Below are positions 3,903-44,062 of a stretch of 49,487 nt of DNA, in pieces. This DNA is from Bacteroidales bacterium (lineage in GTDB: Bacteria; Bacteroidota; Bacteroidia; Bacteroidales; UBA932), in the NCBI GenBank assembly GCA_017423025.1, contig JAFPGC010000007.1:1-49487 (forward strand), read 5' to 3'. Each line of letters begins with the position of its first letter. Position 1 is the stretch's first letter. A program made the position numbers and the translations under genes. The notes beneath the pieces are model-generated. The model saw only the letters and a list, made by a program, of their open reading frames with translations. It did not search any database and had not been told where the DNA came from.

Positions 3903-5984
3903 CTAGTTCTTGGTATTTTTGATGGTAAGGCACATCATGGTGAGGTCGTCGTTGGGCTCGGCCCCATTCCTATGCTTTTCTACGTCGGCAACGATGGTTT
4001 CAATTACTTGCTGGGCCGATTCGTAGCGGCAATTTCTGAAGAAATGGAGCAGGCGATCATCCCCAAACTGCTCGTGGGCGGGATTTTCGGCCTCATTGAG
4101 TCCGTCGGTATAGACAAATAGCGGTTTGCCCATGATGCTCTCTATCTCATCTCCCACGAACTCCAGGCCCGGCAAGACTCCGATGGGGGTGTTGGGGTGC
4201 ATCTGGATGAAGTCGTAGCCCTGGTTGCCGTCTCCCAGGATGGGCGGATTGTGGCCGGCATTGCAGAACGAGAGGTGCCCCGTCTGCAGGTCTATAAGTC
4301 CCAGGAACATGGTGACAAACATGTTGCCTTCGTTATCGGCCCCCGAAAGGGCGTCGTTGATGCGTGTGCAGATTTCGGCAGGAGTCATAGACTGCTTGGC
4401 CAGCGTCTGGAACAGACGGGTGGCCTGCGCCATGAACAGCGAAGCGGGTACGCCCTTGCCGCTGACGTCGCCTACGGCAAAATAGAGGCTGTTGTCTGAA
4501 AGCAGGTAGCCGTACAAGTCTCCGCCCACTTCTCTGGCGGGCATCATGGACGCATACATGTCCAGGCCCGGATAGATGGGGAACATGCAGGGGACCATGG
4601 ACATCTGGATGTCCCGGGCGATGCGCAGTTCGCTCTCCATGCGCTCCTTGATGGTGGTGGTCTCTTCCAGCTGGTCGTAGGCCTCCTTCAGCGCCTCGTG
4701 GGCCTTGTGGAGTTTTTGATCGGCCCTGCGGCGGAAGACGATGTAGATGGTAAAGGCGATCAGGAGGATTACCACGACGATGCCGGTATAGATCTGCCGC
4801 TGGCGGGCCGAACGGGCTTCGGCCTCCACAATCTCCATGTCTCTCACGTGGATGGAATGCAGTTCGCTGGCGTCGAGGCGGCGGTTGTTGATGATGGCCG
4901 AATCCAACACTTCGCAGATCTGCCGCGCCGTAAGATTGGTCGAATCCTGCCGGTTGAGCATCTGGTAGGCGCGATACTTCTTGAGCAGATATCGCTGTAT
5001 GTTGTCCAGGGAGTAGACGTTGAGCTCCTTCTGGAGGTATTCCATAATGGTGCGGTAGCTGGCTACGGCCTCGTCCCAGCGCTGCGCAACGGTTAAATAG
5101 TCACTGGCGTTGGTAAGGCCCTCAGTGGTGTTGGAGAACTGGGTCTGGCGGTATTCCTGATAGGCATTCTCGGCCTCCTGGTGACGCCCCGTTCCCTCTA
5201 GCGAGATGGCCTGGAAAATCTTGAACCTGCCCCACTGCTTGTCAATGTAGTCCTCGTCGTCGGGATAATGCTCCTTGTACTCCTGCACCAGCTGTCCCAG
5301 GCGTTCCGTCCAGAAAAGCCCCTGCTCATATCCCTTGACATTGACCCAGATGTAGGCGATGTTGATGATTCCGGCCACGGCATCGCGATAGGCCGATTTG
5401 GAAGCCTTCTTCTGAATATTGTCCAGGTGCATCTGATAGGCCCGCTCCAGCATGTCGGTAGCCGTGGGGTCTTCCTTGTCGAAATAAGTCTTGGAGCAGC
5501 CCGCGAAAATGAGCAGGTTGGTGTAATCGCTGGTGGTGTCGCACTGGATTTTCTCGAGCCGGGTGATGATGGGAAGGGCCGTATGCAGGGCCGATGCGTA
5601 TTCGGCATACCGACAAAGCTGGCTGGTAAGGTAGCTGGCCGATTTGGCATAGTAGAACAGGTCGTTGGGGTCCGTGGAATTCTCCGTGACCCTTATGGCC
5701 TCCTGCCAGAAGTACTCGGCCAGTTCGCGCTGGCCCAGCTGATAATGGGCATAGCCCTGCCAGTAGTTGCTCTCGCCTTTGGAAAGCTTTCCGGCCTTTC
5801 CCAGGCTGTCGGCCAAGCTTTGCAACCTTTCATAGTCCCTTGCCTGGGAGGCTGCGTTAATCTGGCTGATGGCTTCCGGGGCGGAGGATTTATTGGCTCC
5901 ACTCTGACAGCCGGTGAAGGGCAGCGCCGTGAACATAAGCACGACGGCCGCCAAAGCAAAGGTCTGAACAACTGACTTTTTCAT
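3903..5984 (-). CDS. TPR lipoprotein with C-terminal SpoIIE/PP2C-type serine phosphatase
   Basis: A 693-residue signalling protein. An N-terminal lipoprotein signal ends at LPFTGC (Cys26). Residues about 40-380 are helical TPR-like repeats in the periplasm, followed by a TM helix at about 399-418, a coiled linker, and a cytosolic SpoIIE phosphatase at about 480-690. The metal-binding motifs GGDL (487-490), GDVSGKG (505-511), YTDG (625-628) and NDDLT (678-682) are all present, so it should be active. Such phosphatases usually dephosphorylate STAS-domain anti-anti-sigma factors. No STAS or HATPase partner is encoded in this window. It may be tethered both by lipid and by the TM helix. Confidence 0.9.
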   Translation of the reverse strand: MKKSVVQTFALAAVVLMFTALPFTGCQSGANKSSAPEAISQINAASQARDYERLQSLADSLGKAGKLSKGESNYWQGYAHYQLGQRELAEYFWQEAIRVTENSTDPNDLFYYAKSASYLTSQLCRYAEYASALHTALPIITRLEKIQCDTTSDYTNLLIFAGCSKTYFDKEDPTATDMLERAYQMHLDNIQKKASKSAYRDAVAGIINIAYIWVNVKGYEQGLFWTERLGQLVQEYKEHYPDDEDYIDKQWGRFKIFQAISLEGTGRHQEAENAYQEYRQTQFSNTTEGLTNASDYLTVAQRWDEAVASYRTIMEYLQKELNVYSLDNIQRYLLKKYRAYQMLNRQDSTNLTARQICEVLDSAIINNRRLDASELHSIHVRDMEIVEAEARSARQRQIYTGIVVVILLIAFTIYIVFRRRADQKLHKAHEALKEAYDQLEETTTIKERMESELRIARDIQMSMVPCMFPIYPGLDMYASMMPAREVGGDLYGYLLSDNSLYFAVGDVSGKGVPASLFMAQATRLFQTLAKQSMTPAEICTRINDALSGADNEGNMFVTMFLGLIDLQTGHLSFCNAGHNPPILGDGNQGYDFIQMHPNTPIGVLPGLEFVGDEIESIMGKPLFVYTDGLNEAENPAHEQFGDDRLLHFFRNCRYESAQQVIETIVADVEKHRNGAEPNDDLTMMCLTIKNTKN

Positions 5985-7863: not shown

Positions 7864-7913
7864 CACCTCCACAAAAAAGGCCGGATTATCCGGCCAAATT
7901 TTTTGTGGAGGTG
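7864..7913. terminator. Palindromic bidirectional terminator shared by fic and ssrA
   Basis: The core stem is GGCCGGAT (7879-7886) with ATCCGGCC (7888-7895), flanked by an A-tract on one side and a T-tract on the other, so it can stop both the plus-strand fic message and the minus-strand tmRNA. Outside it, CACCTCCACAAAAAA (7864-7878) is the perfect reverse complement of 7899-7913, which extends the palindrome into the tmRNA acceptor strand. Confidence 0.85.
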
Positions 7914-8300
7914 AGCGGACTCGAACCGCTGTCCAAACGTCGCACCAGGCGGCTTTCTACATGTTTATCCTGCCTTTGGTTTTCGGGGCAAGCCAGCCGG
8001 AAGGCGGGCAAACTCACCCTTAGCCTTTAAGTCTTAACCGGCTTTAGAGGCGTCCACCGGAGCAGCCTCAAATGGATGATACCCCTTGAGGGGCCCTTAA
8101 GAGGCGGAAGGGCCGAGGGATACTCGTCGGCCTCGCAGCCTTGGCGAGGCGGATTAAGTTAATTTGCTTGGCAAATTAAGCAGCGAGAGCGTAGTTGTTG
8201 TTGGCAACTAATTTTGCGAAGTCTGAGATTTACGGGCAAGGCTTCCACGCCCGACATGCTTACCGTCCAGCATCAGCGCTGTCAAAACCAAAACACCCCC
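7906..8300 (-). ncRNA. ssrA: Transfer-messenger RNA (tmRNA)
   Basis: A one-piece tmRNA of about 395 nt. The 5' GGGGGUG (8300-8294) pairs with the 3' CACCUCC (7913-7907), followed by discriminator A at 7906. CCA is not encoded and must be added. The T-arm reads AGCGG-UUCGAGU-CCGCU. The tag reading frame is on the minus strand at 8205-8176: after UAGUU the resume codon GCC starts ANNNYALAA and ends UAA. The ALAA end is the usual proteolysis signal. tmRNA with SmpB rescues stalled ribosomes. Expression starts from TATCTTTG at 8322-8315. Confidence 0.96.
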
Positions 8301-8980: not shown

Positions 8981-9865
8981 CTACTGCCCGTAGTTTCCCA
9001 AATTGATGGGGTGCGGTTCCCAGGCAGCGACATTAACACTGAACATAACCTCTCTGGCGTCGCCCGAAAGTTGGGCCGTAATGGTATTGGTGGCTCCGCC
9101 GACCAGGTCTACACTGCACGTCTTTCCAGAGAAAGTCTTGGTATAATTTCCCTTTGTGGCAGTCCATTCAGCCGTGATCGTGTAGGATCCGGGAACAAGG
9201 TACAAATCGTTGGATTTGGTTCCCGGAGTGGTGTTGGCTATGGTCACGGGGGCGCCCACTGTGGGAGTGCTCCAACCGGTTCCGTCTGTCTGATCGGCTC
9301 CTGTGCGAAGATTGTAGGTTCCGCCGGTTTTGGGCGTAATGGTAACGGAGATGTTGGTTATGGTGTAGTCGTCCACAGCCGTTAAGGTTACGTCGGTGAT
9401 TCTGGCAAAGATGTGCTTGAATGCCAGGGTATTGGGCTCGTTATAGTTGGGGTCGGGCAGGTATGCGCACACCACGTCGACATCATTGGTGGCCGATACG
9501 GTGGCGCCGCCGGCCGTGTGGGTCAGGGTAATGTTGCTGGCATAGAAGTGGTAATTAGGGTCTGTAGAAGGCCACCATTTGCCGCCGGAAGCCTGGAAAA
9601 ATTCCGAACCTTTGGAGAAGGCTACATCGGTCCAGACTGGGTTTTCCGACGGTGCTTCACCTGTTGTGGCAGAGACCTTGAATCCACTGGCAACCAGAGC
9701 AGCCTGGTTTACTTCTGAGGCCTTGGTCTGTACGTCCACCGTGATTTTAGGCTGGGTCCGGAAGACAATCTGTCCTGGTTCTGAAGGAGATGGGGCCTTG
9801 TTGCAGGACAAAAGGAGAGAAAGCGCCATCAGGGACGCTACAATGGGGATAAGTTTTGTTTTCAT
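8981..9865 (-). CDS. Fimbrillin family lipoprotein (probable tip or accessory pilin)
   Basis: A 294-residue protein with a lipoprotein signal ending LLLSC (Cys21). The body is beta-rich, with the Mfa-like layout seen in fimbrillin family proteins (YHFYASNITL, then VVCAYL and TLAFKHIFARI), where the 'F-x-H-x-[FL]-[AS]-[RK]' strand is characteristic. It lacks any enzyme motif. It is the last gene of the ssb-OmpA-FimA-Mfa2 cluster, 18 bp after the anchor-type gene, so it is probably a tip or accessory subunit exported as a lipoprotein and assembled on the outer membrane. Confidence 0.82.
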   Translation of the reverse strand: MKTKLIPIVASLMALSLLLSCNKAPSPSEPGQIVFRTQPKITVDVQTKASEVNQAALVASGFKVSATTGEAPSENPVWTDVAFSKGSEFFQASGGKWWPSTDPNYHFYASNITLTHTAGGATVSATNDVDVVCAYLPDPNYNEPNTLAFKHIFARITDVTLTAVDDYTITNISVTITPKTGGTYNLRTGADQTDGTGWSTPTVGAPVTIANTTPGTKSNDLYLVPGSYTITAEWTATKGNYTKTFSGKTCSVDLVGGATNTITAQLSGDAREVMFSVNVAAWEPHPINLGNYGQ

Positions 9866-9883
9866 AATGGATTAGTATAATAG

Positions 9884-10726
9884 TTAAAGTTCGAATACCA
9901 GGTTGTCGCCCTTTTCCCATTCGGCAACGGAAATGCGGAATTTGGCCTCGGTATAGTCGAATTCCAGGTTTACATCGGCCAGGTTCTTGGCTTCCCAGGA
10001 GAAATCCTTCTGCTCCCGGAAAATGTTCCATAGATTATAGGAATCGGCCAGCCCCTCTTCCTGTCCCAGTTCCGGAATGCCGTAGAGTTCCATGATAAGG
10101 GAATGATCGGCCTGGCGGGGAACGATGAAACGGTAGATTCCGCTGGCCTCTTCCTCGGGTTCATAGCGAAAGACTCCTTTGACGGGAATGCCGGTAGAGG
10201 CGTCAATCCCTACGGTATGTCCGCTGATGGACAGGCGGAAGGGGAATCGGCCCCCTGCACTCTCGAATTGGTCGAAATTGGTAAAATGAATGGTTACACG
10301 GCAATAATCCTTCACGAATTCTACGGGGATCAGGATGGACTCTTCCTTAGCGGGGATTTTGTCGTAGGCAAAGCGGAAGAGCGGGACATAATTGGCCCCT
10401 TCCTCAACCACCCACTTGAATTCTCCCTCTTTCCGGGCCCCTTCAAATCCCATGATTCCATAGCCTTTAACCGCATCCGACTTCTTGACTTTCAGATAGA
10501 AAGACTGGTCCTGGATGTTGTCCACCATGGTGGTGTCGGCCGTCAGAAACACCTCTTCCGTTTGCGAATAAGCCGCGATATGTACATGATTGACCCCGTC
10601 GAAAGCGTCAGCATTCTCAATGTTGAACAGCAGCATACTGGGGCAGCTGATGCGATTTTCCAGGACCAGGTTCTGGCAGGAAAGCAGGAGGCCGATCGCC
10701 CCCAGTAAAGGGATCTTGGTTTTCAT
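9884..10726 (-). CDS. FimB/Mfa2-family fimbrial anchor lipoprotein
   Basis: A 280-residue lipoprotein starting MKTKIPLLGAIGLLLSC (Cys17). I chose the ATG at 10726, which follows the upstream stop by 2 bp and gives a clean signal peptide; a longer frame adds 13 residues without a signal. After the lipid cysteine comes CPSMLLFNIENAD, which resembles the conserved 'C-P-x-x-L-x-F' beginning of FimB/Mfa2 proteins. In Porphyromonas the Mfa2/FimB proteins anchor and limit fimbria length. Translation is probably coupled to the stalk gene. Confidence 0.8.
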   Translation of the reverse strand: MKTKIPLLGAIGLLLSCQNLVLENRISCPSMLLFNIENADAFDGVNHVHIAAYSQTEEVFLTADTTMVDNIQDQSFYLKVKKSDAVKGYGIMGFEGARKEGEFKWVVEEGANYVPLFRFAYDKIPAKEESILIPVEFVKDYCRVTIHFTNFDQFESAGGRFPFRLSISGHTVGIDASTGIPVKGVFRYEPEEEASGIYRFIVPRQADHSLIMELYGIPELGQEEGLADSYNLWNIFREQKDFSWEAKNLADVNLEFDYTEAKFRISVAEWEKGDNLVFEL

Positions 10727-10728
10727 GT

Positions 10729-11871
10729 CTATAGTTCGTAGGTGAGAGTGGTATGGCCTCCCCATTGGCCCACGGTGACGGTGGCCGAGATTTTGCCGAA
10801 CTTGGGACGGTCGCCGGGTGCATCGGTGGCACCGCCGGGCATGGTGATGGTAATGTTTTCGATGTCGTAGGTATGGTTGCGCTCCAGGGTGGCTCCATTG
10901 CTGGATTTGGGAATGTCAAAACAGTAATAGGACTCTTCTCCGTGGGCGGCATTGTCTCCCTGGTTGCGTCCCGCCGTGCCGCGGACATACCCGTGCAGGA
11001 TAATACGGGTCAGACGGGCCGAAGGAGTGGCCTCCGTGTTGTCATTGGATGCCGTAGACGCATTGGGATACACGTAGAAGAAGCGGTTGAGGTCCTGTGT
11101 CCCTGTGGTCGGGCCTATGGATACGTTGAGGTTTCCCCGGTCTCCCAGAAGGGAACGGGCGGCGGCGGGAACGGATTCATTCCAGGCTTCCAGGTTGTAC
11201 CAGTAGGCCGATGAGGCCAGCTCTGCCACGGTGCGGCCGGTGCCCGAGAGGCTTACGCTGTTGACGGCGTTGAGGACATAGACTTCCTTGATGTCCAGGT
11301 AGCAGCCCTCCAGGGACGTGTTGGAAAAGTCCACATTGACGTTTCGAACGGATATGCGTACTCCCAGGTGGCTGACGGTGATGGGAAGGGGAGTGATGCT
11401 CCCTACTGAACCGGCGGTATTGAGTTCGGCCACTTCTATGGCGGCGCTTCCGGTCATCACCAGTCCGGTTGCGGAGTTTTCTTCCAGCAGGGAATAGTGG
11501 GACATCAGTTCCTGCTCATTGTCAAAGGACTGACGGGGCGCATTCACCAGGGCCCAGACCTTCTTTTTTCCTATATAGGTGTTAAGCGTCAGGGTGGTGC
11601 TTCCGTCGGTCGTCCATTTGTCGGTTTCCCTTACGTTAAGGGTGAGATCCGTACTGCTGATATCTTTGAAGACAAAGATCTGCAGGTTATTGACGGCCGA
11701 TTCGTCCGTAGCGCTTCCCAATACCTTGGTGGCGGGGTCGCCCGGCAGAATCAGGTTCACCAGAAGGGTCCCCGTGGGATCGGATTCCGGGCTTTTCTCC
11801 CAGTTAGTGGGTGAGAAGGGTTGACACGCTGCCAGAAGCAGACTCATAGCAAACAGGATAGTTTTTCTCAT
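10729..11871 (-). CDS. FimA/Mfa1-type major fimbrial subunit precursor
   Basis: A 380-residue lipoprotein, signal ending LLLAAC (Cys16). The mature N-terminal domain has the FimA-type pattern of a beta strand TLLVNLILPG, then TKVLGSATDESAVNNLQIFVF, and later the alanine-rich YIGKKKVWALVNAP strand. These match P_gingi_FimA-type stalk pilins, which are exported as lipoproteins, cleaved by an Arg-gingipain-like protease and polymerised by donor-strand exchange. It sits between the OmpA-like gene (15 bp gap) and the anchor gene. Confidence 0.87.
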   Translation of the reverse strand: MRKTILFAMSLLLAACQPFSPTNWEKSPESDPTGTLLVNLILPGDPATKVLGSATDESAVNNLQIFVFKDISSTDLTLNVRETDKWTTDGSTTLTLNTYIGKKKVWALVNAPRQSFDNEQELMSHYSLLEENSATGLVMTGSAAIEVAELNTAGSVGSITPLPITVSHLGVRISVRNVNVDFSNTSLEGCYLDIKEVYVLNAVNSVSLSGTGRTVAELASSAYWYNLEAWNESVPAAARSLLGDRGNLNVSIGPTTGTQDLNRFFYVYPNASTASNDNTEATPSARLTRIILHGYVRGTAGRNQGDNAAHGEESYYCFDIPKSSNGATLERNHTYDIENITITMPGGATDAPGDRPKFGKISATVTVGQWGGHTTLTYEL

Positions 11872-11886
11872 GATAAATACAGGTTA

Positions 11887-13851
11887 TTAATAGTTAACAT
11901 CTTCTTTTTCTTGGTTGAGGCCATACCTCTGGATAAGGGTGTTGATTTCCGGATCCAGATTCCCTCGGAAAACATAGGAGCGGTCTTCGTGACAGGCATG
12001 CAGATACGACTGGACGGCATTCTGGTCATCTCCCTTTCGGGCATACAGCAGAGCCATCATGTAATTGACCTGCGGCGTCTTTTCCAGCTCTTCCAGAATA
12101 GCCATGGCCGATGCATTGTAGTCCAGGGAAACATAGGCGATGGCGGTGTTGTAGTCTTTATATTCCCTCAAAAGGCTGAGGGCTTTCTCATACTCCCTTT
12201 CCTTCAGGGCCGATACCCCTTCGAGGTAGGTGCTGTCCACTTCGGTAGTGTGTACAGTGTCTTTCACCATTCCTTTTCGGTGCAGATGGAAGTCGAAGCG
12301 GACCGTTCTGAGACGGGGATAAAGATTCTCACGAAGATACCGGTAGCAGGAGAGTTCCTGCAGCTTCTTTTCCCGAAGGTCGGGATCCGTGATGTCCTTG
12401 AGCTCGTTGTACCGGTCTTTATCGGCCTCCCTTATGGTACTGTCCTTTTGCACCAGGGCATCCAGCATGACCCAGTTTTCGGCATCGTAGTGGGGGAGGA
12501 AACGGATGGGTTCCTTTTTGGCTTTCCGGTATGTGTCGTCCATGGAAAGAATGATTCCCTGGCTCCTTCTGAGCGAGTCCTCCCTGCGTTTGAGGAAGGC
12601 CTGGTAATGCCTGGAGACCGACTGGGAGCGCTGCACCGAGAGTTTCCGGTTGCTCTCCCAGGTGCCTTCCGGGGAACACGAGGCCGTGATGACGATGGAG
12701 TCCAGGTCAAACACCTTGTCTTCCACCAGGCTCACCAGGTTTTCCTTGATGCGCCCCATTTCGACGGGGTTGTTCCCCTGGCTTTCCCGGATATCGGCCC
12801 GGCCCTGTTCAAATTCTATGTAACAGGCGGTATTGGCCTGGACCGTGCGGCTGATGACCTTGGTTTTGTAACGCACGCGGTTGTCCGTAAGGCTGCTCAG
12901 GGAACTGATATAGAACGTGAGGGGCTCACTGGCCGGTACCTTGTAAATGACTTGTCCGTCCTGGAGAACTTCTCCGCCCAGGACTATGGATGCTTTGCGC
13001 ATCTTGGGCCGGACCCGGATGGATTGCACGTATTCGTAGGCGATGTCGCCTCCAATCTGGTGAATCACCGTGTCCAGGCGCAGCCCCTCCGATACGATGG
13101 GCGCTTTCACATACTGCCGGAAAACTTCCTCCTTCCGTTCCACCTTCATGCGGTTCAGGCGTACACGCAAACGGTTGGTGTAATGCTCCAGGGCCCGTTG
13201 TTCCGTAATGCCGAAGGCCGATGTGAAGGCTTCGTCCGACACATAACTGCTGTCGGTACGGAACCGGTAAATGGAAGGGATGTTGCGGCGAAGGAAGTTC
13301 TCAAGTTGCCGATGGTCAACAAAGTGAAGCGAATCGGCGGCAATGGATTCCAGGAAGCGGCGGTATTGTTCGTATCCTTTTAACTGCGCTTTCCGGTATC
13401 CGCTGCCGGTGATGAGGACGGGCTCCAGGCGGATGCTGTCTTCCAGGACAAACAAGTCGGGATAGAAACACAGTTGCCAGTCGCTGTCCTGCATCTTTTC
13501 CGGGACCAGGATCTGGAAGCGAAGGTCTACACTTCCGCCGCGTTCCGCTACATTCCGGAACCGCGCGGTGACCTTGGCGGCCTCCAGGGTCTCATGGGCC
13601 ACCATTTCTCCGTTATCGTCTTTGACGGCTTTCATGATGATGACTTCACGGCCTTCCGGGTCCTCTACCACCAGGGTATCCCGGTGGACAGGCGTCCCTA
13701 CATCCAGGGTGGGGAGCTCCCTTTCCTCGCTTAGCGACAGCTGGGCCGTCACCTGACCCTCCCTCAACTGCCGGATATGGGAGGTCTGGGCACAAGCGGA
13801 CGCCAGCAGGAGGAAAGCCGGCAGGAGATAGCGTTGACAGGCTGTGTTCAT
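11887..13851 (-). CDS. DUF3868/OmpA-like lipoprotein of the fimbrial cluster
   Basis: A 654-residue protein with a signal ending LLASAC (Cys20). The N-terminal beta-rich half (to about residue 350) fits DUF3868. The middle has an OmpA-like stretch, YIEFEQGRADIRESQGNNPVE followed by DSIVITASCSPEG and a run of RSQSV, the pattern of OmpA_C-like peptidoglycan-binding folds. The C-terminal part (EGVSALKEREYEKALSLL, TPQVNYMMALLYARKGD) is TPR-like. Such proteins often accompany FimA-type operons in Bacteroidales and probably act in assembly or anchoring. It begins 5 bp after the ssb stop. Confidence 0.83.
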   Translation of the reverse strand: MNTACQRYLLPAFLLLASACAQTSHIRQLREGQVTAQLSLSEERELPTLDVGTPVHRDTLVVEDPEGREVIIMKAVKDDNGEMVAHETLEAAKVTARFRNVAERGGSVDLRFQILVPEKMQDSDWQLCFYPDLFVLEDSIRLEPVLITGSGYRKAQLKGYEQYRRFLESIAADSLHFVDHRQLENFLRRNIPSIYRFRTDSSYVSDEAFTSAFGITEQRALEHYTNRLRVRLNRMKVERKEEVFRQYVKAPIVSEGLRLDTVIHQIGGDIAYEYVQSIRVRPKMRKASIVLGGEVLQDGQVIYKVPASEPLTFYISSLSSLTDNRVRYKTKVISRTVQANTACYIEFEQGRADIRESQGNNPVEMGRIKENLVSLVEDKVFDLDSIVITASCSPEGTWESNRKLSVQRSQSVSRHYQAFLKRREDSLRRSQGIILSMDDTYRKAKKEPIRFLPHYDAENWVMLDALVQKDSTIREADKDRYNELKDITDPDLREKKLQELSCYRYLRENLYPRLRTVRFDFHLHRKGMVKDTVHTTEVDSTYLEGVSALKEREYEKALSLLREYKDYNTAIAYVSLDYNASAMAILEELEKTPQVNYMMALLYARKGDDQNAVQSYLHACHEDRSYVFRGNLDPEINTLIQRYGLNQEKEDVNY

Positions 13852-37749: not shown

Positions 37750-39466
37750 GGTTTCCGATAGCCTCAAGCATGGGCATGGCATTCGCGCTGGTGTACTGCT
37801 GGTCATAGTGGCCACCATTACCTTGGAAGCCACCACCCTTATCCAATATTATTTCTCCCAAAGGGGAATCAAGGAGGAAGCTACCGCCCGGGCCCAGAGC
37901 CAGCTGGAGAGCTCCCGCAACCAGATTATGGACATTGTGAACCAGACGGAAGCCGCCGTTCGCAACAGCGTCTGGATTGCCCAGTGGTGCCTCAACCAGC
38001 CGGACAGCCTTATCCGGGTAGCCCAACGCATCGTGGAGGACAACCCCGTGGTGGTGGGTTCTACCGTGGCCGTGGTGCCGGGTTATCTCAAGAGGTATCC
38101 TCTGTTTTCCCCTTATGTGTGTGAAGGACCGGATGGCCTGGAATTCAAGACCCTGGCTACGGAGGAATACGATTATCCTTCCCAAGAGTGGTTTGCCGAG
38201 CCTTTGAAGTTGGGGAAGGGCTATTGGTCTGAACCTTATATCGATGAAGGCGGAGGAGAAATCCTCATGACCACCTACTCTCTGCCCATCCGGGACGCGG
38301 AAGGCACTATTGCGGCCATTTTGACGGCCGATATTTCCCTGGACTGGCTCACGCAGCTGGTGGGAAGCATCAAGGTGTATCCGAAGGCATACGGCATCAT
38401 CGTCAGCCGGACTGGCCAGATTATGGTGTCTCCTGTGGATGGTGAACAGACAAACCGGGCTGTTCAGATGGTAATGGATGCCGCCAAGCCCGGAGAATCC
38501 GGCTGTGTAACCGTCAACAAGAGGGCTCTCACCAGCCTGGTTTTCTATTCTCCGGTCGAGCGCACCGGTTGGATCATGTCCATCGTTATTCCGGAGAGCG
38601 ATATCTATATGGGTATCCACCGGGTAGCCCTGATTGTGATCCTGCTCCAGGTTCTGGGTATCCTTATGATTGTCCTCATCATCCGTTCCGTCTTCAGGAG
38701 CCAGAGGGAATACAATGAGGTCAGCGCCCAGAAGGAGCGCATGCAGAGTGAACTTCAGGTGGCCAGCGACATCCAGATGTCCATGGTCCCCAAGATTTTC
38801 CCTCCGTTCCCCAACAGAGATGACCTGGACATGTCGGCCTTCCTCGCCCCCGCCAAGGAAGTGGGCGGAGACCTGTACGACTTCTTTATTCGCGACGAGA
38901 AACTGCATTTCTGCATTGGTGACGTATCCGGCAAGGGTGTTCCGGCCTCTTTGCTCATGGCCGTGACCCGTACCCAGTACCGTACCCTGGCCGCTCATTA
39001 CGACAGCCCGTCCAAGATTGTGACTTCCATCAACAACGGTATGTCGGACATGAATGACAATAGTATGTTCGTCACCTTCTTCTGCGGTGTCCTGGACCTC
39101 CAGACCGGCCTTTTGAAGTACTGCAATGCCGGTCATAACGCTCCTTACATCCTTACGGACGCCATCCGGGAACTGGACGTGATCCCCAACCTTCCGCTGG
39201 GTATCATGGAAGACATGACCTTTGAGGAGCAGGAGGTTACCCTGCACTACGACGACGCCATCTTCCTGTATACCGACGGTCTTAACGAGGCAGAGAACAT
39301 AGACCACGATCAGTTTGGTGACGAAGGCGTACGCGCTGTCCTCCATACCCGCCGAGATGCGGATCATCACCTGAAAGCCATGCATCAGGCCGTGATTGAT
39401 TTCCGCGGAGAGGCAGACCAGAGCGACGACCTCACCATGCTCTTCATCCACTATTTGAAGAAATAG
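37739..39466 (+). CDS. Cache-sensor SpoIIE/PP2C-type serine phosphatase
   Basis: A 575-residue membrane sensor phosphatase. TM1 at about 17-37, a periplasmic dCache-like sensor (about 40-290, with PSQEWFAEPLKLGKGYWSEPY), TM2 at about 296-316, a coiled linker, and a SpoIIE domain at about 370-575. Metal motifs GGDLYDF (376-382), GDVSGKG (394-400), YTDGLNEAEN and QSDDLTM are intact. The linker QVASDIQMSMVPKIFPPFP is close to that of the 3903-5984 phosphatase. Target likely a STAS anti-anti-sigma factor, not in this window. Confidence 0.92.
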   Translation: MKIKVSDSLKHGHGIRAGVLLVIVATITLEATTLIQYYFSQRGIKEEATARAQSQLESSRNQIMDIVNQTEAAVRNSVWIAQWCLNQPDSLIRVAQRIVEDNPVVVGSTVAVVPGYLKRYPLFSPYVCEGPDGLEFKTLATEEYDYPSQEWFAEPLKLGKGYWSEPYIDEGGGEILMTTYSLPIRDAEGTIAAILTADISLDWLTQLVGSIKVYPKAYGIIVSRTGQIMVSPVDGEQTNRAVQMVMDAAKPGESGCVTVNKRALTSLVFYSPVERTGWIMSIVIPESDIYMGIHRVALIVILLQVLGILMIVLIIRSVFRSQREYNEVSAQKERMQSELQVASDIQMSMVPKIFPPFPNRDDLDMSAFLAPAKEVGGDLYDFFIRDEKLHFCIGDVSGKGVPASLLMAVTRTQYRTLAAHYDSPSKIVTSINNGMSDMNDNSMFVTFFCGVLDLQTGLLKYCNAGHNAPYILTDAIRELDVIPNLPLGIMEDMTFEEQEVTLHYDDAIFLYTDGLNEAENIDHDQFGDEGVRAVLHTRRDADHHLKAMHQAVIDFRGEADQSDDLTMLFIHYLKK

Positions 39467-39477
39467 GAAATATTATT

Positions 39478-39508
39478 TTTGCAGATTCGGGAATATCTGC
39501 TATCTTTG
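39478..39508 (+). promoter_or_regulatory. Promoter for tRNA-Cys (TTTG-N19-TATCTTTG)
   Basis: A full -33/-7 pair: TTTG at 39478-39481 and TATCTTTG at 39501-39508 with 19 bp between. The tRNA starts 11 bases later. Confidence 0.8.
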
Positions 39509-39519
39509 CATTCCCGTTT

Positions 39520-39593
39520 GGTACTATGGCCGAGTGGTTAGGCACAGGTCTGCAAAACCTGCTACAGCGGTTCGATTCCGCTTGGTACCTCCA
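39520..39593 (+). tRNA. tRNA-Cys (anticodon GCA)
   Basis: A 74-nt cloverleaf: acceptor GGTACTA pairs with TGGTACC, anticodon stem CAGGT/ACCTG with loop CTGCAAA (anticodon GCA), T-arm GCGG-TTCGATT-CCGC, discriminator T and encoded CCA. The U73 discriminator is the known CysRS identity base. It marks the left edge of a variable region and may be an integration site. Confidence 0.95.
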
Positions 39594-39948
39594 AAAATGC
39601 CTCTGGACGCACTCCAGAGGCATTTGCGTTTCCAAAATGTGTCTCAAATGTGTCTCGTTTTTTTTGGCTATCCGAAATATCTGGTTGAATATTTCTTGGC
39701 TGACACTTTGTTTGGAAGTAGGGTATGGTTGGATTTGTACCACCTATGCTTAAACACACACATCGTGACCGAACTGTGGCGTGGACAGTTTTTGTTGTTT
39801 CACGCCTCTGATTCATGTTTCAAATCGCACAAAAATCAAAGAAATGCCTCCATTTTGACCCCATTGTTATTTCGTATCGTTTTCTCTAATTTCACCTAAT
39901 TTTTACTCCCAACCCTAGAATAAATTTTATACAAATCAAATACTTATC
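39594..39948. other. Non-coding region after tRNA-Cys
   Basis: About 355 bp without a supported gene. After the terminator there is a tandem pair of ATGTGTCTC (39637-39645 and 39648-39656) and a T-run. The rest is AT-rich. Short frames here are artefacts of the tRNA end. The tandem words next to a tRNA could be an attachment-site scar, which I cannot confirm. Confidence 0.4.
39595..39625 (+). terminator. Terminator of tRNA-Cys
   Basis: AAATGCCTCTGGA (39595-39607) and its reverse complement (39613-39625) form a 13-bp stem with a 5-base loop directly after the tRNA. Confidence 0.75.
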
Positions 39949-40074
39949 ATGAAAGAAAACAAAGAACTTTATGATGCCCCCACGCTTACAGCCGTGGAAT
40001 TAAAGCAGGAAGGCGTCATCTGCGCCAGTCCGGAACCATACAATAATCCATATGGAGATGAACTGTCATTTTAA
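39949..40074 (+). CDS. 41-residue peptide of a family found upstream of lipoprotein genes
   Basis: Starts MKENKELYDAPTLTAVELKQ and goes on with EGVICASP, then a hydrophilic Asn/Tyr/Pro tail ending DELSF. The motif Y-[DE]-A-P ... K-x-E-G-[VI]-I-C-x-S-P has the same spacing in a second peptide gene at 43572-43706. No signal peptide. It ends 13 bp before the lipoprotein gene, and its last codon overlaps a strong Shine-Dalgarno-like AAGGAGGG (40073-40080). Function unknown. A precursor peptide, chaperone-like leader or regulator is possible. Confidence 0.7.
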   Translation: MKENKELYDAPTLTAVELKQEGVICASPEPYNNPYGDELSF

Positions 40075-40080
40075 GGAGGG
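40073..40080 (+). promoter_or_regulatory. Unusually strong Shine-Dalgarno (AAGGAGGG)
   Basis: Lies 7 bases before the ATG at 40088. Bacteroidota genes seldom use a strong Shine-Dalgarno, so this decides the start of the lipoprotein and suggests high or separately tuned translation. Confidence 0.6.
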
Positions 40081-40087
40081 TACGACA

Positions 40088-41491
40088 ATGAAAAAAGCAC
40101 TGCTTATTATGAGTGCCCTTCTTGCACTCGTCGCATGTAACAAAGAAACTCCCGTTAAGGAGAGCGCTATCGATCCGTCCAAGATTGTTTTCAACATCAA
40201 TGTAGAAAACGGTGAAGCAACCAAAGGAGTCAAGACCGTCTGGCAGAGTGGAGACGTAGTCTATGCATTCTTCCAGGAAAACACCTCTCAGTATGTCAAG
40301 ATGACCTACAACGGCACCACCTGGGACTTTACGGACAAGAGTGGTGGTACCACCTTCAGTGGTCTTGTTCTATCCGCCTCCGGCAAGAAGTTAAGTGCCA
40401 TATATATGCCTGGCTTCGTGTGCTCCGCGGCTCCTACTTGGAGCACCGACCGCTGGACTTTCGGGACAGTCGGGGGCCATTACCAGACCGCCGCTTCAGA
40501 TTATACCGTCACATCAACCAGTGAGGTGAATACGCTGAGCGCCACTCTCCACATGGTTGCTCCTGCGAACATAATGCAGGTTTGTATCCCTGCCCCCAAT
40601 CCCGCTTCCGGCAACGAGTATGTTCTGACGGCTACTCATTTCATCCCCTTCTCCTTCAGCGGCATTGTTCCTGGAGAGGCGGCAGCTTACGGTGCCGGTA
40701 CAAATGGTTTCCCTATTACGGCATACAAGGGAACGATGGGCGGCGAAGAGGCATATTACTTCTGGGGTATTCTGGAAGGAACTTCCCTCGGGACAACCAG
40801 CTACACTTTCCAGCTCGTAGAGCGCAATGCCGATAAAAAGTATGCGATATCCTCGAAATCCCAGACCATCAACACTAATTTTACAGGTTCCGCAGCCATT
40901 AAACTAAGCACCAACCTTGTCGACAATGGTAAATTTGTGAGCCTGGGTTACGACGGCGGTCCCCTCTGGGCTACGGGTAACTTGAAAGAGGCAAGTCCTT
41001 TCATCGCCGATCCTCTTGAGGCTGGTAATTATTACAAGTGGGGCTATACCACTCCCTACGACGTGACAGGTATTACGGACGCATACAACAATTATAAGAT
41101 CGCTGCAGGCTTTATGGATACTGCTGCCGCCAAAAATAGCAATTGGTGTATTCCCACCATAGCCCAGTTCGATGCGCTCATTAGTGATTCGAACACCAAT
41201 GCTAAGACAGAATCCGAGAGTTGGAAGACGGGTTGGACCACTCTTGGAGGTAATAATGGTGGTAGGCTCATCACCAGCAAGGCCAATGGTATTTCATTGT
41301 TCTTTGCGGCTGCAGGCTACTACCTCAATGGATCGCTCGGCTATGCGGGTAACTACGGTTACTGTTGGTCTTCTACACCTTACGATTCCTACTACGACAA
41401 AACCTACTACCTGGGCTTCAATAGCTACGACATCAGCAAGTACGGCGACGTCCGTTACTACGGGTTCTCTGTTCGCCCCGTCAAGCCGTAG
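40088..41491 (+). CDS. Fimbrillin-like lipoprotein with C-terminal FGE/lectin-type variable domain
   Basis: A 467-residue lipoprotein, signal ending LLALVAC (Cys17). Residues about 30-290 are fimbrillin-like beta strands. The C-terminal part (about 320-467) has NWCIPTIAQFDALI, GYCWSSTPYDS and GFSVRPV, the layout of the Fibrobacter-major-paralog/FGE-sulfatase fold used by diversity-generating-retroelement targets in Bacteroidetes. The last 50 residues are very rich in Tyr, Asp, Ser and Asn codons of the xAC type. Surface display and ligand binding are likely; no reverse transcriptase is in the window. Confidence 0.8.
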   Translation: MKKALLIMSALLALVACNKETPVKESAIDPSKIVFNINVENGEATKGVKTVWQSGDVVYAFFQENTSQYVKMTYNGTTWDFTDKSGGTTFSGLVLSASGKKLSAIYMPGFVCSAAPTWSTDRWTFGTVGGHYQTAASDYTVTSTSEVNTLSATLHMVAPANIMQVCIPAPNPASGNEYVLTATHFIPFSFSGIVPGEAAAYGAGTNGFPITAYKGTMGGEEAYYFWGILEGTSLGTTSYTFQLVERNADKKYAISSKSQTINTNFTGSAAIKLSTNLVDNGKFVSLGYDGGPLWATGNLKEASPFIADPLEAGNYYKWGYTTPYDVTGITDAYNNYKIAAGFMDTAAAKNSNWCIPTIAQFDALISDSNTNAKTESESWKTGWTTLGGNNGGRLITSKANGISLFFAAAGYYLNGSLGYAGNYGYCWSSTPYDSYYDKTYYLGFNSYDISKYGDVRYYGFSVRPVKP

Positions 41492-41714
41492 CCGCTCCTG
41501 TAGCTAAGGCGCTTGCCGATGCTACATCAGGGGACATTGGCAAGATAGCCGGGAAGGACGGAAAAATCTATGATACGAAGGCCGATGCTGAGGCTGTGGC
41601 TACAGGAAATGCCGTGGCTATGATTGCCTATGTTGGCACAGAAAGCGACTGCGCCCACGGTCTGGCTATCTTCGGCGACGACAGCGAGTCGATACAACTC
41701 CGCGTTCGTGCCTG
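41492..41714 (+). pseudogene. Remnant of a second FGE/lectin-domain gene
   Basis: In the frame starting at 41491, with no start codon, the sequence reads AAPVAKALADATSGDIGKIA, then GKDGKIYDTKADAEAV and MIAYVGTESDCAHGLAIFGD before a stop at 41712-41714. 'IGKIAGKDGKIY' and 'AMIAYVG ... HGLAI' are the usual entry strands of the same lectin-like domain family. It lacks both a start and the C-terminal half, so it is a broken paralog or a leftover of recombination with the upstream gene. Confidence 0.65.
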
Positions 41715-41741
41715 ACTCGCTTTTTAACCTATAGCAAATGA

Positions 41742-41769
41742 ATTGCCGCCATCTCAAGATGGCGGCAAT
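41742..41769. terminator. Perfect 13-bp hairpin terminator
   Basis: ATTGCCGCCATCT (41742-41754) pairs with AGATGGCGGCAAT (41757-41769) around a 2-base centre. It ends the plus-strand lipoprotein region. The T-tract after it is weak. Confidence 0.65.
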
Positions 41770-41863
41770 GCTTTGGCTGTTTCCAACCAGAAATTGCAGT
41801 GAGGGGTTAAAACTCACCCTTAAGCGAAAGGAGTAATCCAACCACATTTTGCGGATGCCAAAA

Positions 41864-41889
41864 TAAGCCAGCCTTTGATGGCCGGCTTA
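41864..41889 (-). terminator. Terminator of the DUF285-like lipoprotein gene
   Basis: TAAGCCAGCC (41864-41873) and GGCCGGCTTA (41880-41889) pair with one G-U. On the minus strand it is followed by TTTT, 77 bp after the stop at 41967. Confidence 0.65.
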
Positions 41890-41966
41890 AATTATCGTGT
41901 CTGTAGGAATGTCTGCTCTGGTTGTTTTAACTAATCAAAGAGTGTTGCCATACAAAAGACTTAAAG

Positions 41967-43547
41967 CTATTTTTGGTAGTTCACTACTGTCCATCCACTA
42001 GGGATACCGCTAGAGGTTATAGGCCATGAAGACAAAGAGCTCGCTTTGGTAAACGTTCCCTTATTGGCAACACCATGAAGCCATTCATGTGTGTAACCAG
42101 AGGCAGGTATATTAGTAGCCAAACAAGTAACAGATTGTAGTTTTGAGCAGAATCGGAACATATAATTGTAGCAATCTTGAACTAGTGTCGCTGCAGGCAG
42201 GACGGGGCTGGAAGTCAGGTTAGAGCAGTTTTCAAACATATTACCGTAGCATCCTTGAGCCAGCGTCATTGCAGGCAATATTTCGGGGGCAGTAGTCAGG
42301 TTGGCGCAATTACCGAACATGTACGAGTAGCAACTTGCTGAAAGTGTAGTTGCAGGTAGTTTCAGGCCGCTCGCGTCAGTTAGTGCGGAATAATAATTAA
42401 AAAGTCCACTAAATGCACCTGGGAATGTTAGAGTCTTTGCCGTTACAAAACTATCCTCGTTAACAAGGCTCATGATGTTGCCATATACCTTCACTTGGGC
42501 TGTCCCGTTACTGAATGTGGTACTGTAATATGAGGAAATCGCGTTTTTATTACCGTAGAACGCCACCTTATCGCCAGTTGTTACATCTATGGTGCAAGTT
42601 GGACGGCTCACAGTGGTCTTATCGCCTCCATTCAGGGAGTACTGCATGCCGTACTGTGCATTATTCACTACAATGGTTCCGTCCGTTATGGCCTCCAGCG
42701 TCAGCGGAACAGATAGCGGGTCTCTCTCCATCCTCCAGCTTACGTTGTAGCCGTTACCATACGTATAGGACTTATCGGTCAGCGACTTAACATAGTAGTT
42801 GGTCCCGTCGTTGGCAGTAATCTCGACGTTTGCGTTGTACTGTGCTTCAATGGCCACGTAGATGGGCCCTTCTGCGGCCGTGCGGTTGATAGTGTAGGAG
42901 TGGCTGTAATCTTCAGTGAAAGTGAGGGTCATTTGTTTGATGTCTCCGGTGATTTCGCTTGTACCATCGCTGTTTTTCAGAGTAATGGCAAGGATGGCGA
43001 GCCGGTTCTCCAGCGTGACAGAGGCCGGCAGTTGGGCATCCGAGAAGTTGCCCATATAAGAGCAAAGGTCCAGACTACTGCCGATGGTGGCAAGCAAACC
43101 GTCCTGCGTATCCAGTTTGGAGTAGTCAACGATCCTGGAAGTGTAGACTTCGTCATCAGGATCAATCTCCTCCTTGACCATAGCGGCAGGATAGATGAAA
43201 TTAAAAGCACCGCTATTTGCAGGAGTATAATCAAGGGTGAATTTCAAATGAGCCGACTTGCCTTCGTTATATATATCATCAACTGTAAGAGGATTACTGA
43301 CGGCCTTCCGGGATTGATTATTCTCGTCTTTATACACGAGAGCAATCCGATCATCTACGGAAAAAGTCTTCACGCCTTCGGCCGTGAGGGCCTTGGTACC
43401 CCCTTCATCGCTAAAACCGATGGTCGTGGTCAGAGTAATGCTTTTGTCTTCCTGCTGCTGGTCCTCTTCGACCTTGGCACAGCCCGCCAGGATGGCTCCC
43501 ATTGCTACGAGGGCAGCCATGCCAAAAAGTTTCATTGTCTTTTTCAT
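41967..43547 (-). CDS. Fimbrillin-like lipoprotein with C-terminal Cys/Tyr-rich (DUF285/BspA-like) repeats
   Basis: A 526-residue lipoprotein with signal ending AILAGC (Cys23). The N-terminal half is fimbrillin-like (FIYPAAMVKEE, SVTLENRLAILAITL). Residues about 400-490 hold three repeats of about 26 residues with the pattern LPAxTLxxxCYxxMFxxCxxL, as in BspA/DUF285-type leucine-rich surface proteins. The mosaic layout fits a variable surface adhesin. It is preceded by a 44-residue peptide gene of the same family as at 39949, 24 bp upstream. Confidence 0.82.
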   Translation of the reverse strand: MKKTMKLFGMAALVAMGAILAGCAKVEEDQQQEDKSITLTTTIGFSDEGGTKALTAEGVKTFSVDDRIALVYKDENNQSRKAVSNPLTVDDIYNEGKSAHLKFTLDYTPANSGAFNFIYPAAMVKEEIDPDDEVYTSRIVDYSKLDTQDGLLATIGSSLDLCSYMGNFSDAQLPASVTLENRLAILAITLKNSDGTSEITGDIKQMTLTFTEDYSHSYTINRTAAEGPIYVAIEAQYNANVEITANDGTNYYVKSLTDKSYTYGNGYNVSWRMERDPLSVPLTLEAITDGTIVVNNAQYGMQYSLNGGDKTTVSRPTCTIDVTTGDKVAFYGNKNAISSYYSTTFSNGTAQVKVYGNIMSLVNEDSFVTAKTLTFPGAFSGLFNYYSALTDASGLKLPATTLSASCYSYMFGNCANLTTAPEILPAMTLAQGCYGNMFENCSNLTSSPVLPAATLVQDCYNYMFRFCSKLQSVTCLATNIPASGYTHEWLHGVANKGTFTKASSLSSWPITSSGIPSGWTVVNYQK

Positions 43548-43571
43548 GCTTTCTTCGTTCTAATGGGAAAC

Positions 43572-43706
43572 TTATTCTTCGTCAATGGTGTTCCAATTGT
43601 AGTTTTGCAATCCCCCGTCAGGGCTCTGGCAAATAATACCTTCTGCCTTAACCTGGACAACCATTGCCGAGGGGGCCTCATAAAGCTGCTTTTCTTGTAA
43701 AACCAT
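43572..43706 (-). CDS. 44-residue peptide, second member of the small family
   Basis: Starts MVLQEKQLYEAPSAMVVQVK and continues AEGIICQSP, then a Gly/Asn/Asp tail ending IDEE. The positions of Y-E-A-P and K-x-E-G-I-I-C-x-S-P match the 39949 peptide one for one, with one residue more at the N-terminus. It sits between a near-perfect promoter (43779-43750) and the lipoprotein gene. Single Cys26 (Cys25 in the other copy) is conserved. Too short for gene finders. Function unknown. Confidence 0.7.
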   Translation of the reverse strand: MVLQEKQLYEAPSAMVVQVKAEGIICQSPDGGLQNYNWNTIDEE

Positions 43707-43749
43707 AAATAAAAGGAATAGAATACTTTATTACTACTTAAAAACCGCG

Positions 43750-43779
43750 CAAAGTTACACTTTTCTGCCAGAACCACAA
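43750..43779 (-). promoter_or_regulatory. Promoter for the small peptide-lipoprotein pair (TTG-N19-TAACTTTG)
   Basis: On the minus strand TTG (43779-43777), 19 bp, then TAACTTTG (43757-43750). The predicted start near 43743 gives a 37-nt leader to the peptide ATG at 43706. Confidence 0.8.
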
Positions 43780-43815
43780 TAATTATTTCCATCGTATCCA
43801 CTATCCTATGAAAAA

Positions 43816-43842
43816 GCCCCGGCAGATGCACTCTGTCGGGGC
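43816..43842 (-). terminator. Intrinsic terminator after the truncated gene
   Basis: GCCCCGGCAGA (43816-43826) pairs with TCTGTCGGGGC (43832-43842) around a 5-base loop, with TTTTT next on the minus strand. It lies 26 bp after the stop at 43869 and ends the gene fragment there. Confidence 0.8.
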
Positions 43843-43868
43843 CGATAAACTCGGTTTTCAGCCGGAGA

Positions 43869-44062
43869 CTAACCGTTGCTCAGCACGGCACTCACAAGCA
43901 TCTCCGCACTCTTCTCGCCGGTGGCGGTATTGATGTAGAAATACTTGAAGAACACCTTCGGGAATCCGGTGGAAGGAGCGCCACACTTGGCGTCATACTT
44001 CGCCTTGATGTCAATGGCGGTATCCACCAACCCGTGCACGAGAATCCGCCTTTTGGTGTACG
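43869..44062 (-). pseudogene. C-terminal fragment of an unknown gene cut by a MITE-like element
   Basis: On the minus strand, from 44062 to the stop at 43869, the frame reads ILVHGLVDTAIDIKAKYDAK, then GAPSTGFPKVFFKYFYINTA and EMLVSAVLSNG. It has no start and is cut at its 5' side where the inverted-repeat element begins. Followed by a good terminator. I do not recognise the family. It looks like the end of a beta-rich surface or phage-structural protein. Confidence 0.55.

Follow-up and report, generated by a model that had tools for sequence, protein, structure and literature searches.

In translationally coupled leader cistrons, which form reinitiation operons, a short first cistron ends only a few bases upstream of the start of the next, with a Shine-Dalgarno (SD) site between the two. 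In surface antigen cassette exchange, an expression end and a surface-gene cassette recombine independently. Little is understood of how the large, variable lipoproteins with which Bacteroidales coat gut and rumen are made and exchanged. One report describes Bacteroidia ribosomes as not recognising SD sites, and the SD-led rpsU/rpsR genes of Bacteroidota as having a strong SD, in a phylum otherwise without, that serves autoregulation of ribosomal proteins (PMC9976891). A second report describes GG-leader RiPP and bacteroidetocin precursors of Bacteroidales as short, with a conserved N-terminal and a variable C-terminal half (PMC10352776). Here, we describe a peptide family present as two peptide/lipoprotein gene pairs in a 49,487-nucleotide stretch of DNA (the window) from a Bacteroidales bacterium of gut or rumen (Table 1).

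Both small ORFs proposed in an earlier sequence-only reading were confirmed, as were the Y[DE]AP and KxEG[VI]ICxSP motifs common to the two peptides at identical spacing, the distances of 13 and 24 bp between peptide stop and lipoprotein start, and the lipoprotein signal sequence that opens both downstream ORFs. The promoter suggested for one copy was recovered as a -7 element upstream of copy 2; no match to this Bacteroidota-type element was found in the stretch upstream of copy 1, where a generic sigma-70 scan was uninformative (9 sites vs. 5.5 expected). The description of the lipoproteins as fimbrillin-like was not borne out: no fimbrillin or Mfa-like model in Pfam or NCBIfam matched either of them up to E 1, and these databases gave sub-threshold C-terminal matches only (Lcl_C/FISUMP for lipoprotein 1, LRR_5/PARCEL repeat for lipoprotein 2). 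Four relatives of lipoprotein 1 in its class have a peptide tail of the same kind. An Rfam scan of window positions 39400-44000 gave nothing above the gathering score except one tRNA. A tRNA-Cys precedes peptide copy 1; tRNA-linked integration was considered and rejected, with a tRNA or tmRNA at just 12 of 52 other loci scanned (of >200 loci).

Table 1 Features of the two peptide/lipoprotein pairs in the window
Feature	Position	Strand	Description
Peptide copy 1, first cistron	39949..40074	+	41 aa; profile match; head shared with a paralogue on contig C32
Predicted SD GGAGG	40075..40079	+	Abuts stop of peptide copy 1; 8 nt to ATG of lipoprotein 1
Lipoprotein 1, second cistron	40088..41491	+	467 aa; weak Lcl_C/FISUMP C-terminus
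Front module (upstream region and peptide head)	39662..40028	+	88% identity to the front of another lipoprotein operon (contig C32)
Remnant like C-terminal part of another FISUMP-type lipoprotein	41492..41715	+	Frame +2, by eye
3' flank common to contig C32 operon	41700..41869	+	85% over 180 aligned positions
Peptide copy 2, first cistron	43572..43706	-	44 aa
Lipoprotein 2, second cistron	41967..43547	-	526 aa; no GGAGG before start; weak LRR/PARCEL matches
Bacteroidota-type -7 promoter element TAACTTTG	43750..43757	-	44 nt before start of peptide copy 2

The likeness of the window peptides is far beyond chance. With a window peptide as single query, nine places in the genome matched at E<=10, the best paralogue at 3.8e-11, and a profile search of the genome returned 14 family matches at E<=1. 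Members have ~45 residues, with a head (Y-x-A-P...E-G-[VI]-[IV]-C-x-S) followed by a tail and, in most copies, a conserved Cys at the head/tail boundary; at least one member is present in 106 of 151 genomes of the host genus. Searches of 74 peptides against Pfam and NCBIfam gave chance-level matches only, and a search of solved structures (PDB) with the 74-peptide profile gave one chance match (E 0.83). One member had a lasso-peptide match among the chance-level Pfam/NCBIfam results (E 0.098). Among the open-access papers listed by literature searches, none named the family in its title or abstract start. Similar entries presumably exist in Bacteroidales as 'hypothetical protein' without assigned function. 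The family is unnamed and is in neither Pfam nor NCBIfam, and its signature can be used by annotators.

The proposal that the peptides are enriched directly before lipoprotein genes withstood the check: of the 65 distinct copies in five whole genomes, 62 have their end no more than 60 bp from a gene for an exported protein, nearly always a lipoprotein. After refinement, the gap between peptide and lipoprotein has a median of 16 nt and lies between 0 and 60 nt in 139 of 145 cases, with six overlapping, so that the first-cistron stop lies near the second-cistron start, as in translationally coupled leader cistrons. In a sample of lipoprotein classes drawn from peptide-holding loci, the peptide accompanies 49 of 107 classes, one of which is mixed; p-values in this work are optimistic because the loci were chosen for holding peptides and the sequences are related. 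Around 64 loci, no neighbour family was recurrent except one separate lipoprotein family at 15.

A candidate SD site is linked to the peptide. GGAGG precedes 67 of 166 peptide-bearing lipoproteins vs. none of 65 without peptide, the latter figure being a recount using profiles; counted by lipoprotein class, the numbers are 11/49 with and 0/58 without peptide. Apparent exceptions, 25 of 130 'other' lipoproteins with GGAGG, were discarded, because a family-type small ORF preceded every one of them (21 recognised by pattern, four by eye). The site begins 0-6 nt past the peptide stop in 52 of 64 cases and lies 8 nt from the ATG in 45 of the 67 lipoproteins. Within the loci examined, this predicted SD was found only before peptide-bearing lipoproteins. 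The remaining 99 of 166 peptide-bearing lipoproteins, including that of window copy 2, have no GGAGG, and none of 139 peptide starts is preceded by it. The 67 SD sites and the lipoprotein start codons were no more hidden than in shuffled contexts (unpaired probability 0.398 vs. 0.359, p=0.42, and 0.434 vs. 0.422, p=0.53, respectively), which argues against an unmasking switch. Upstream of the peptides, the putative promoter element TAnnTTTG was enriched (42 of 142 vs. 7.6 in shuffles).

As judged from substitution patterns, protein-level selection acts on both head and tail. Over 22 independent pairs, in-frame dN/dS was 0.31 for the head and 0.32 for the tail vs. 0.71-1.27 in other frames, and the idea of a coding peptide thus survived; a first estimate of 0.27 and 0.28 (27 pairs) was replaced because the tail-identity filter biases the result. 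Codon agreement at the conserved Y, A, K, and C was at the level predicted by codon usage and in excess at G, S, and some E and V positions, a pattern indicating conservation at the level of the protein, some positions having a modest excess of codon agreement.

Head and tail behave as modules. Tail identity reached at least 0.6 in 52% of 170 same-class pairs vs. 0.07% of 8427 different-class pairs; hence, the tail, earlier called divergent, is so between lipoprotein classes but is conserved within a class. Promoter and head travel together, as do lipoprotein and tail, and chimeras break inside the peptide gene: among 11935 pairs, six were chimeric with a common front only and 16 with a common back only, although one of the latter (L089/L076) is a contig-end artefact. 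Within the peptide ORF, aligned identity stops between +80 and +89 for four of five front-only pairs and starts between +39 and +57 for four of five back-only pairs. That the tail tracks the lipoprotein can be explained by linkage alone. The idea of the tail as a mimic of its own cargo was rejected (mean local score 23.26 vs. 22.54 for other cargos; 133 peptides, p=0.11). For the suggestion of a co-translated partner of mosaic surface proteins, placement, selection, and chimeras thus support partnership and mosaicism, while translation is predicted.

Among more distant relatives, 27 of 61 rows sit after a large ORF and not before a neighbour, so that acting as a first cistron cannot hold for the family as a whole. 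GGAGG preceded the peptide in none of the 27 'after' loci and was present in four of 25 'before' loci. TIGR04183, the type IX sorting domain, scored above cut-off in three of ten upstream proteins scanned (L118, L235, and L256) and in none of the seven scanned from family f111.

Our working hypothesis, which we favour tentatively and hold at a little less than even confidence, is that the peptide would be a conserved microprotein encoded by the first cistron, its translation coupled to that of its surface protein, in which a generic head is joined to a tail matched to the cargo. We infer its coupling and molecular role as follows. Translation of the peptide would begin by the SD-independent route usual in Bacteroidota; a ribosome ending at its stop would restart at the lipoprotein a few bases downstream, probably aided by the SD in many units, and the peptide cistron would thereby gate lipoprotein synthesis. 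Because amino acids are conserved and not the reading frame alone, the product itself may act, and we suggest with less assurance that the generic head might meet a shared cell factor while the tail matches the adjacent cargo, the peptide being an assembly, export, or feedback partner of the surface protein. The head region is also the site where promoters and cargo cassettes recombine. A wider proposal, on balance clearly unlikely, is a Bacteroidales class of adaptor microproteins serving surface proteins exported by two routes, as lipoproteins or as type IX cargo, in which the head docks on a shared factor, the tail names the cargo, and the cargo in the host genus is made by dedicated SD reinitiation not used in ordinary initiation of the phylum, possibly by ribosomes lacking bS21.

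A peptide acting only in trans, as a cytosolic escort, chaperone, or regulator of the exported protein encoded next to it, while the operon merely co-expresses the pair without coupling in cis, would account for selection on both halves, for the flexible position before lipoproteins or after large proteins, some of them with a type IX sorting domain, and for the absence of GGAGG from most peptide-bearing lipoproteins. However, mere co-expression predicts neither the tight link of SD and peptide with correct spacing nor the short median gap, and we regard this explanation as possible but somewhat unlikely. A cis-acting leader (attenuation or ribosome arrest), sensing a signal during its own translation and switching the lipoprotein gene, would have the short first cistron, conserved sequence, and nearby second start seen here; yet SD and start are not hidden, the Rfam scan of the window region gave only the tRNA above gathering score, the conserved residues lie in the N-terminal half, and the 27 distant rows lie after their neighbour, and we hold it to be improbable.

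The conserved N-terminal half, class-specific tail, and boundary Cys would also suit a RiPP or pheromone precursor with a leader and a variable core, matured by enzymes encoded elsewhere, and the sequence-only reading had likened the peptides to precursors. This likeness was not supported: no maturation, transport, or immunity gene recurs in the vicinity of the 64 loci, the 74 peptides match no precursor model in Pfam or NCBIfam beyond chance, the tail is under purifying selection within a class, and the position of the 27 distant rows fits poorly. Published Bacteroidales RiPP clusters are described as combining GG-motif leaders with a peptidase-containing transporter (PMC10352776), whereas the heads here have no GG motif by eye; a precursor is very improbable. 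Breakpoints and chimeric pairs within the peptide ORF could indicate that the stretch serves only as a DNA site or hinge at which cassettes recombine, its peptide reading a by-product, but this is disfavoured by the dN/dS of 0.31 and by codon agreement no higher than codon usage predicts at Y, A, K, and C, although G, S, and some E/V positions show an excess; breakpoints there are expected if the peptide stretch is the sole sequence common to the loci; of all explanations, we give it the least credence.

Under the favoured reading of a coupled first-cistron microprotein, the data suggest that a tiny gene helps to make or handle the adjacent surface protein. The peptide appears to be a selected, unnamed microprotein that marks a promoter/cargo recombination point, and it is accompanied by SD sites, which these bacteria reportedly lack almost entirely except at ribosomal-protein genes. 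Two questions become testable: the role of the microprotein and SD reinitiation for surface proteins in Bacteroidota.

Compared with known systems, window-type units resemble translationally coupled leader cistrons in their short first cistron, close stop and start, and, in part of the units, a predicted intervening SD, and differ in that the first cistron is conserved and modular in amino-acid sequence, SD use is reportedly absent from the host class, and some relatives follow their partner. As for rpsU/rpsR, a strong predicted SD stands out in an SD-poor phylum; unlike there, it would serve the second cistron of surface-lipoprotein units. The peptides are short with a conserved N-terminal and variable C-terminal half like GG-leader RiPP and bacteroidetocin precursors, but lack the GG motif by eye and a recurring nearby transporter or enzyme, and their tail is conserved per cargo class. 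Finally, front and cargo cassette recombine independently as in surface antigen cassette exchange; no invertase or silent array was noted, and the point of joining falls within a conserved peptide gene of its own.

Re-reading of the sequence bore out what the sequence-only reading had stated about the two small ORFs, their common motif and their spacing to the next start codon. Both downstream ORFs carry lipoprotein signal sequences; no fimbrillin model matched them, so that the label "fimbrillin-like" is not borne out, and their weak matches, every one under curated cut-offs, were to Lcl_C/FISUMP and to LRR/PARCEL repeats. Searching the window's 2.39-Mb draft genome with one of its two peptides gave nine places at E<=10; with a profile built from 74 peptides as query, fourteen matched at E<=1. 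We conclude that the small-peptide finding is real. The data below give good support to its central proposal, that the peptide gene is a partner of mosaic surface proteins; the reading as a precursor peptide is not supported.

Features of the window, of other contigs of its genome (C) and of sampled peptide loci (L)
Feature	Sequence	Position (strand)	Observation
Peptide copy 1	window	39949-40074 (+)	41 aa, before lipoprotein 1 (40088-41491)
Peptide copy 2	window	43572-43706 (-)	44 aa, before lipoprotein 2 (41967-43547)
tRNA-Cys gene	window	39520-39593 (+)	immediately 5' of copy 1 front module
86-bp piece	window	39666-39751 (+)	97% identical to C58 29695-29780; all that the window retains of the AraC-like ORF stretch found on C58
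AraC-like ORF	C58	29695-29780	coordinates of the matching segment, which overlaps the 3' end of the ORF; AraC-type regulator by eye
Region behind lipoprotein 1	window	41492-41715	resembles remnant of another FISUMP-type lipoprotein (by eye)
Lipoprotein-like run	window	8981-13851 (-)	four ORFs in a row, no recognised peptide ahead; perhaps a pilus-type operon
tmRNA	window	7905-8300	tag ANNNYALAA, unlike that of L074
tmRNA	L074	3136-3529	predicted tag GNYNYSYAC
Tandem array	L069	581-7018	full copies of the peptide at four places in 7 kb (581, 3059, 5015-5021, 6893); lipoprotein ORF next in three, the fourth at contig end
Odd copy	L069	2473	head only
Frameshifted copy	L111	3986-4081 onward	head intact, tail out of frame shortly past Cys, lipoprotein start at +66
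Single ORF	L245	1501-2607	peptide motif in frame with lipoprotein-like signal sequence, 369 residues

Selection was estimated from 22 independent pairs, picked by lipoprotein similarity and with equal tail lengths. dN/dS was 0.31 (bootstrap 0.24-0.40) in the head, the conserved N-terminal half, and 0.32 (0.21-0.44) in the tail, the remaining C-terminal half; the other two frames gave 0.71 and 1.27 (head) and 1.18 and 0.99 (tail). Among 136 representatives, codon agreement was close to the codon-usage expectation at conserved Y, A, K and C, slightly above it at P and clearly above it at G, S and some E, V and I positions, an excess that recent exchange would also give. Overall, it is the amino acids that are conserved, in head and tail alike.

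A first profile yielded 112 peptide rows, 106 of them at >=25 bits and 102 of these with 250 nt downstream. The next ORF had a lipobox in 87 and another signal peptide in 12 (by eye 7 lipoprotein-like, 5 not); the three with neither were a fragment in L069, the frameshifted copy in L111, and L025. A looser version of this test on 304 other ORFs in the same loci gave 51 lipobox and 83 signal-only ORFs. To avoid selection by neighbour, we included all matches from five genomes (67 in number, 65 of them distinct sequences): an exported-protein gene began <=60 bp from the peptide end in 62 of the 65 (59 by lipobox pattern, 3 further lipoprotein-like by eye), in two a lipoprotein lay 168 or 193 bp away, and the last had none nearby. 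Genome G424 had 23 matches and 22 distinct copies, 21 of them <=60 bp from a lipoprotein-like gene (for example, L201-L211, L215, L218, L219 and L223). Across 64 loci, the only recurrent neighbour was one separate lipoprotein family (15 loci), all others occurring in <=3. The sampled loci contained 107 lipoprotein classes, 49 with the peptide (one of them mixed) and 58 without.

Tail identity tracks lipoprotein class and head identity much less so: tails were >=0.6 identical in 52% of 170 same-class pairs versus 0.07% of 8427 different-class pairs, and heads >=0.75 identical in 22% versus 3%. Among 11935 pairs, six had upstream DNA and head in common but neither tail nor cargo (the adjoining lipoprotein), and sixteen had tail and cargo in common and not the front, including L089/L076, a contig-end artefact. 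We aligned five pairs of each kind. Four of the front alignments lost identity between +80 and +89 of the peptide ORF; in the fifth, L052/L084, identity continued owing to the relatedness of the two cargos. Four of the back alignments gained identity between +39 and +57 and kept it through the greater part or the whole of the lipoprotein; the remaining pair, L015/L014, was alike from end to end. Copy 1 itself matches contig C32 from -287 to +80, and the match resumes only in the 3' flank (41700-41869). To explain the mosaic pattern, ectopic homologous recombination at the one stretch that the loci have in common suffices.

A single scan across named genome contigs yielded 69 loci, most from ruminant-gut MAGs as judged by isolate names; 68 were titled Bacteroidales, Bacteroidia, Bacteroidaceae or Prevotellaceae, and the Oscillospiraceae title of the remaining one (L089) was taken for a binning error. 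Matches at E<=0.01 occurred in 106 of 151 genomes of the window's genus. Order-wide, 8 of 393 genomes matched the genus-based profile at E<=0.001, and 24 of 384 (16 of 205 genera) matched a broader one; 2 of 296 genomes in a phylum sample matched, one being the window's own.

For more distant relatives we took 61 rows scoring >=17 bits in chosen loci, of which six belong to the window's own genus. An exported-protein gene followed the peptide in 27 ("before" cases), a large ORF ended shortly ahead of it in another 27 ("after" cases), 3 showed both arrangements and 4 showed neither. In family f111 of these relatives, 21 of 25 come after a large ORF, and most of these ORFs end in a similar K-rich tail, sorting-domain-like by eye. 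Three of ten scanned upstream proteins (families f19 and f30) passed the TIGR04183 (type IX sorting domain) cut-off, and no sorting-domain model matched the seven from f111. The 369-residue ORF of L245 (family f41) could reflect a fusion, loss of a stop codon or an error in sequencing. The association is thus with exported proteins, apparently of two routes, and a purely cis-acting leader cannot account for everything.

Upstream of the peptide, TAnnTTTG was present in 42 of 142 fronts versus 7.6 in shuffles, with 24 of 43 sites at -70 to -41. The Shine-Dalgarno (SD) site GGAGG preceded 59 of 138 lipoprotein starts versus 0 of 139 peptide starts and, counting all 232 lipoproteins called in the sampled loci minus one ambiguous, 67 of 166 with the peptide versus 0 of 65 without. 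By class, the count was 11 of 49 versus 0 of 58, which eases non-independence without removing it. As for other genes, none of 61 internal operon genes and 9 of 423 first genes had GGAGG ahead of them; among the distant relatives, the site lay ahead of the lipoprotein in 4 of 25 "before" cases, and none of the 27 "after" cases had it in front of the peptide. Of 67 GGAGG sites, 45 stood 8 nt ahead of the ATG; of 64, 52 began 0-6 nt past the stop codon of the peptide. Pairing energies with the anti-SD, which we take to be the usual 16S end, were <= -7 kcal/mol for 45% of lipoproteins with the peptide versus 2% without; of 41 genomes searched, 2 showed CCTCC in 16S-end context, the window's own draft not among them.

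A simple unmasking switch would expose the SD and start upon peptide translation, and against it count both that these were no more hidden than in shuffled contexts and that 99 of 166 lipoproteins with the peptide have no GGAGG. According to PMC9976891, Bacteroidia ribosomes do not recognise SDs, their anti-SD being held by bS21 and its neighbours, and strong SDs are reported there for rpsU and rpsR. From this reported blindness and the SD pattern we infer that ribosomes that have just terminated on the peptide may reinitiate at the lipoprotein, or that bS21-poor ribosomes may be used. This mechanism of the peptide-lipoprotein units is a proposal, its steps part observed and part inferred.

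Against Pfam and NCBIfam the 74 peptides gave only chance-level matches, the best at E 0.0048 and 0.095, respectively; among PDB sequences, nothing matched their profile below E 0.83. A limited search turned up neither a curated family nor a PDB sequence or paper describing the peptide family and its operon design, which on that ground we regard as new; the parts of the design, namely coupled cistrons and cassette exchange, behave like known things.
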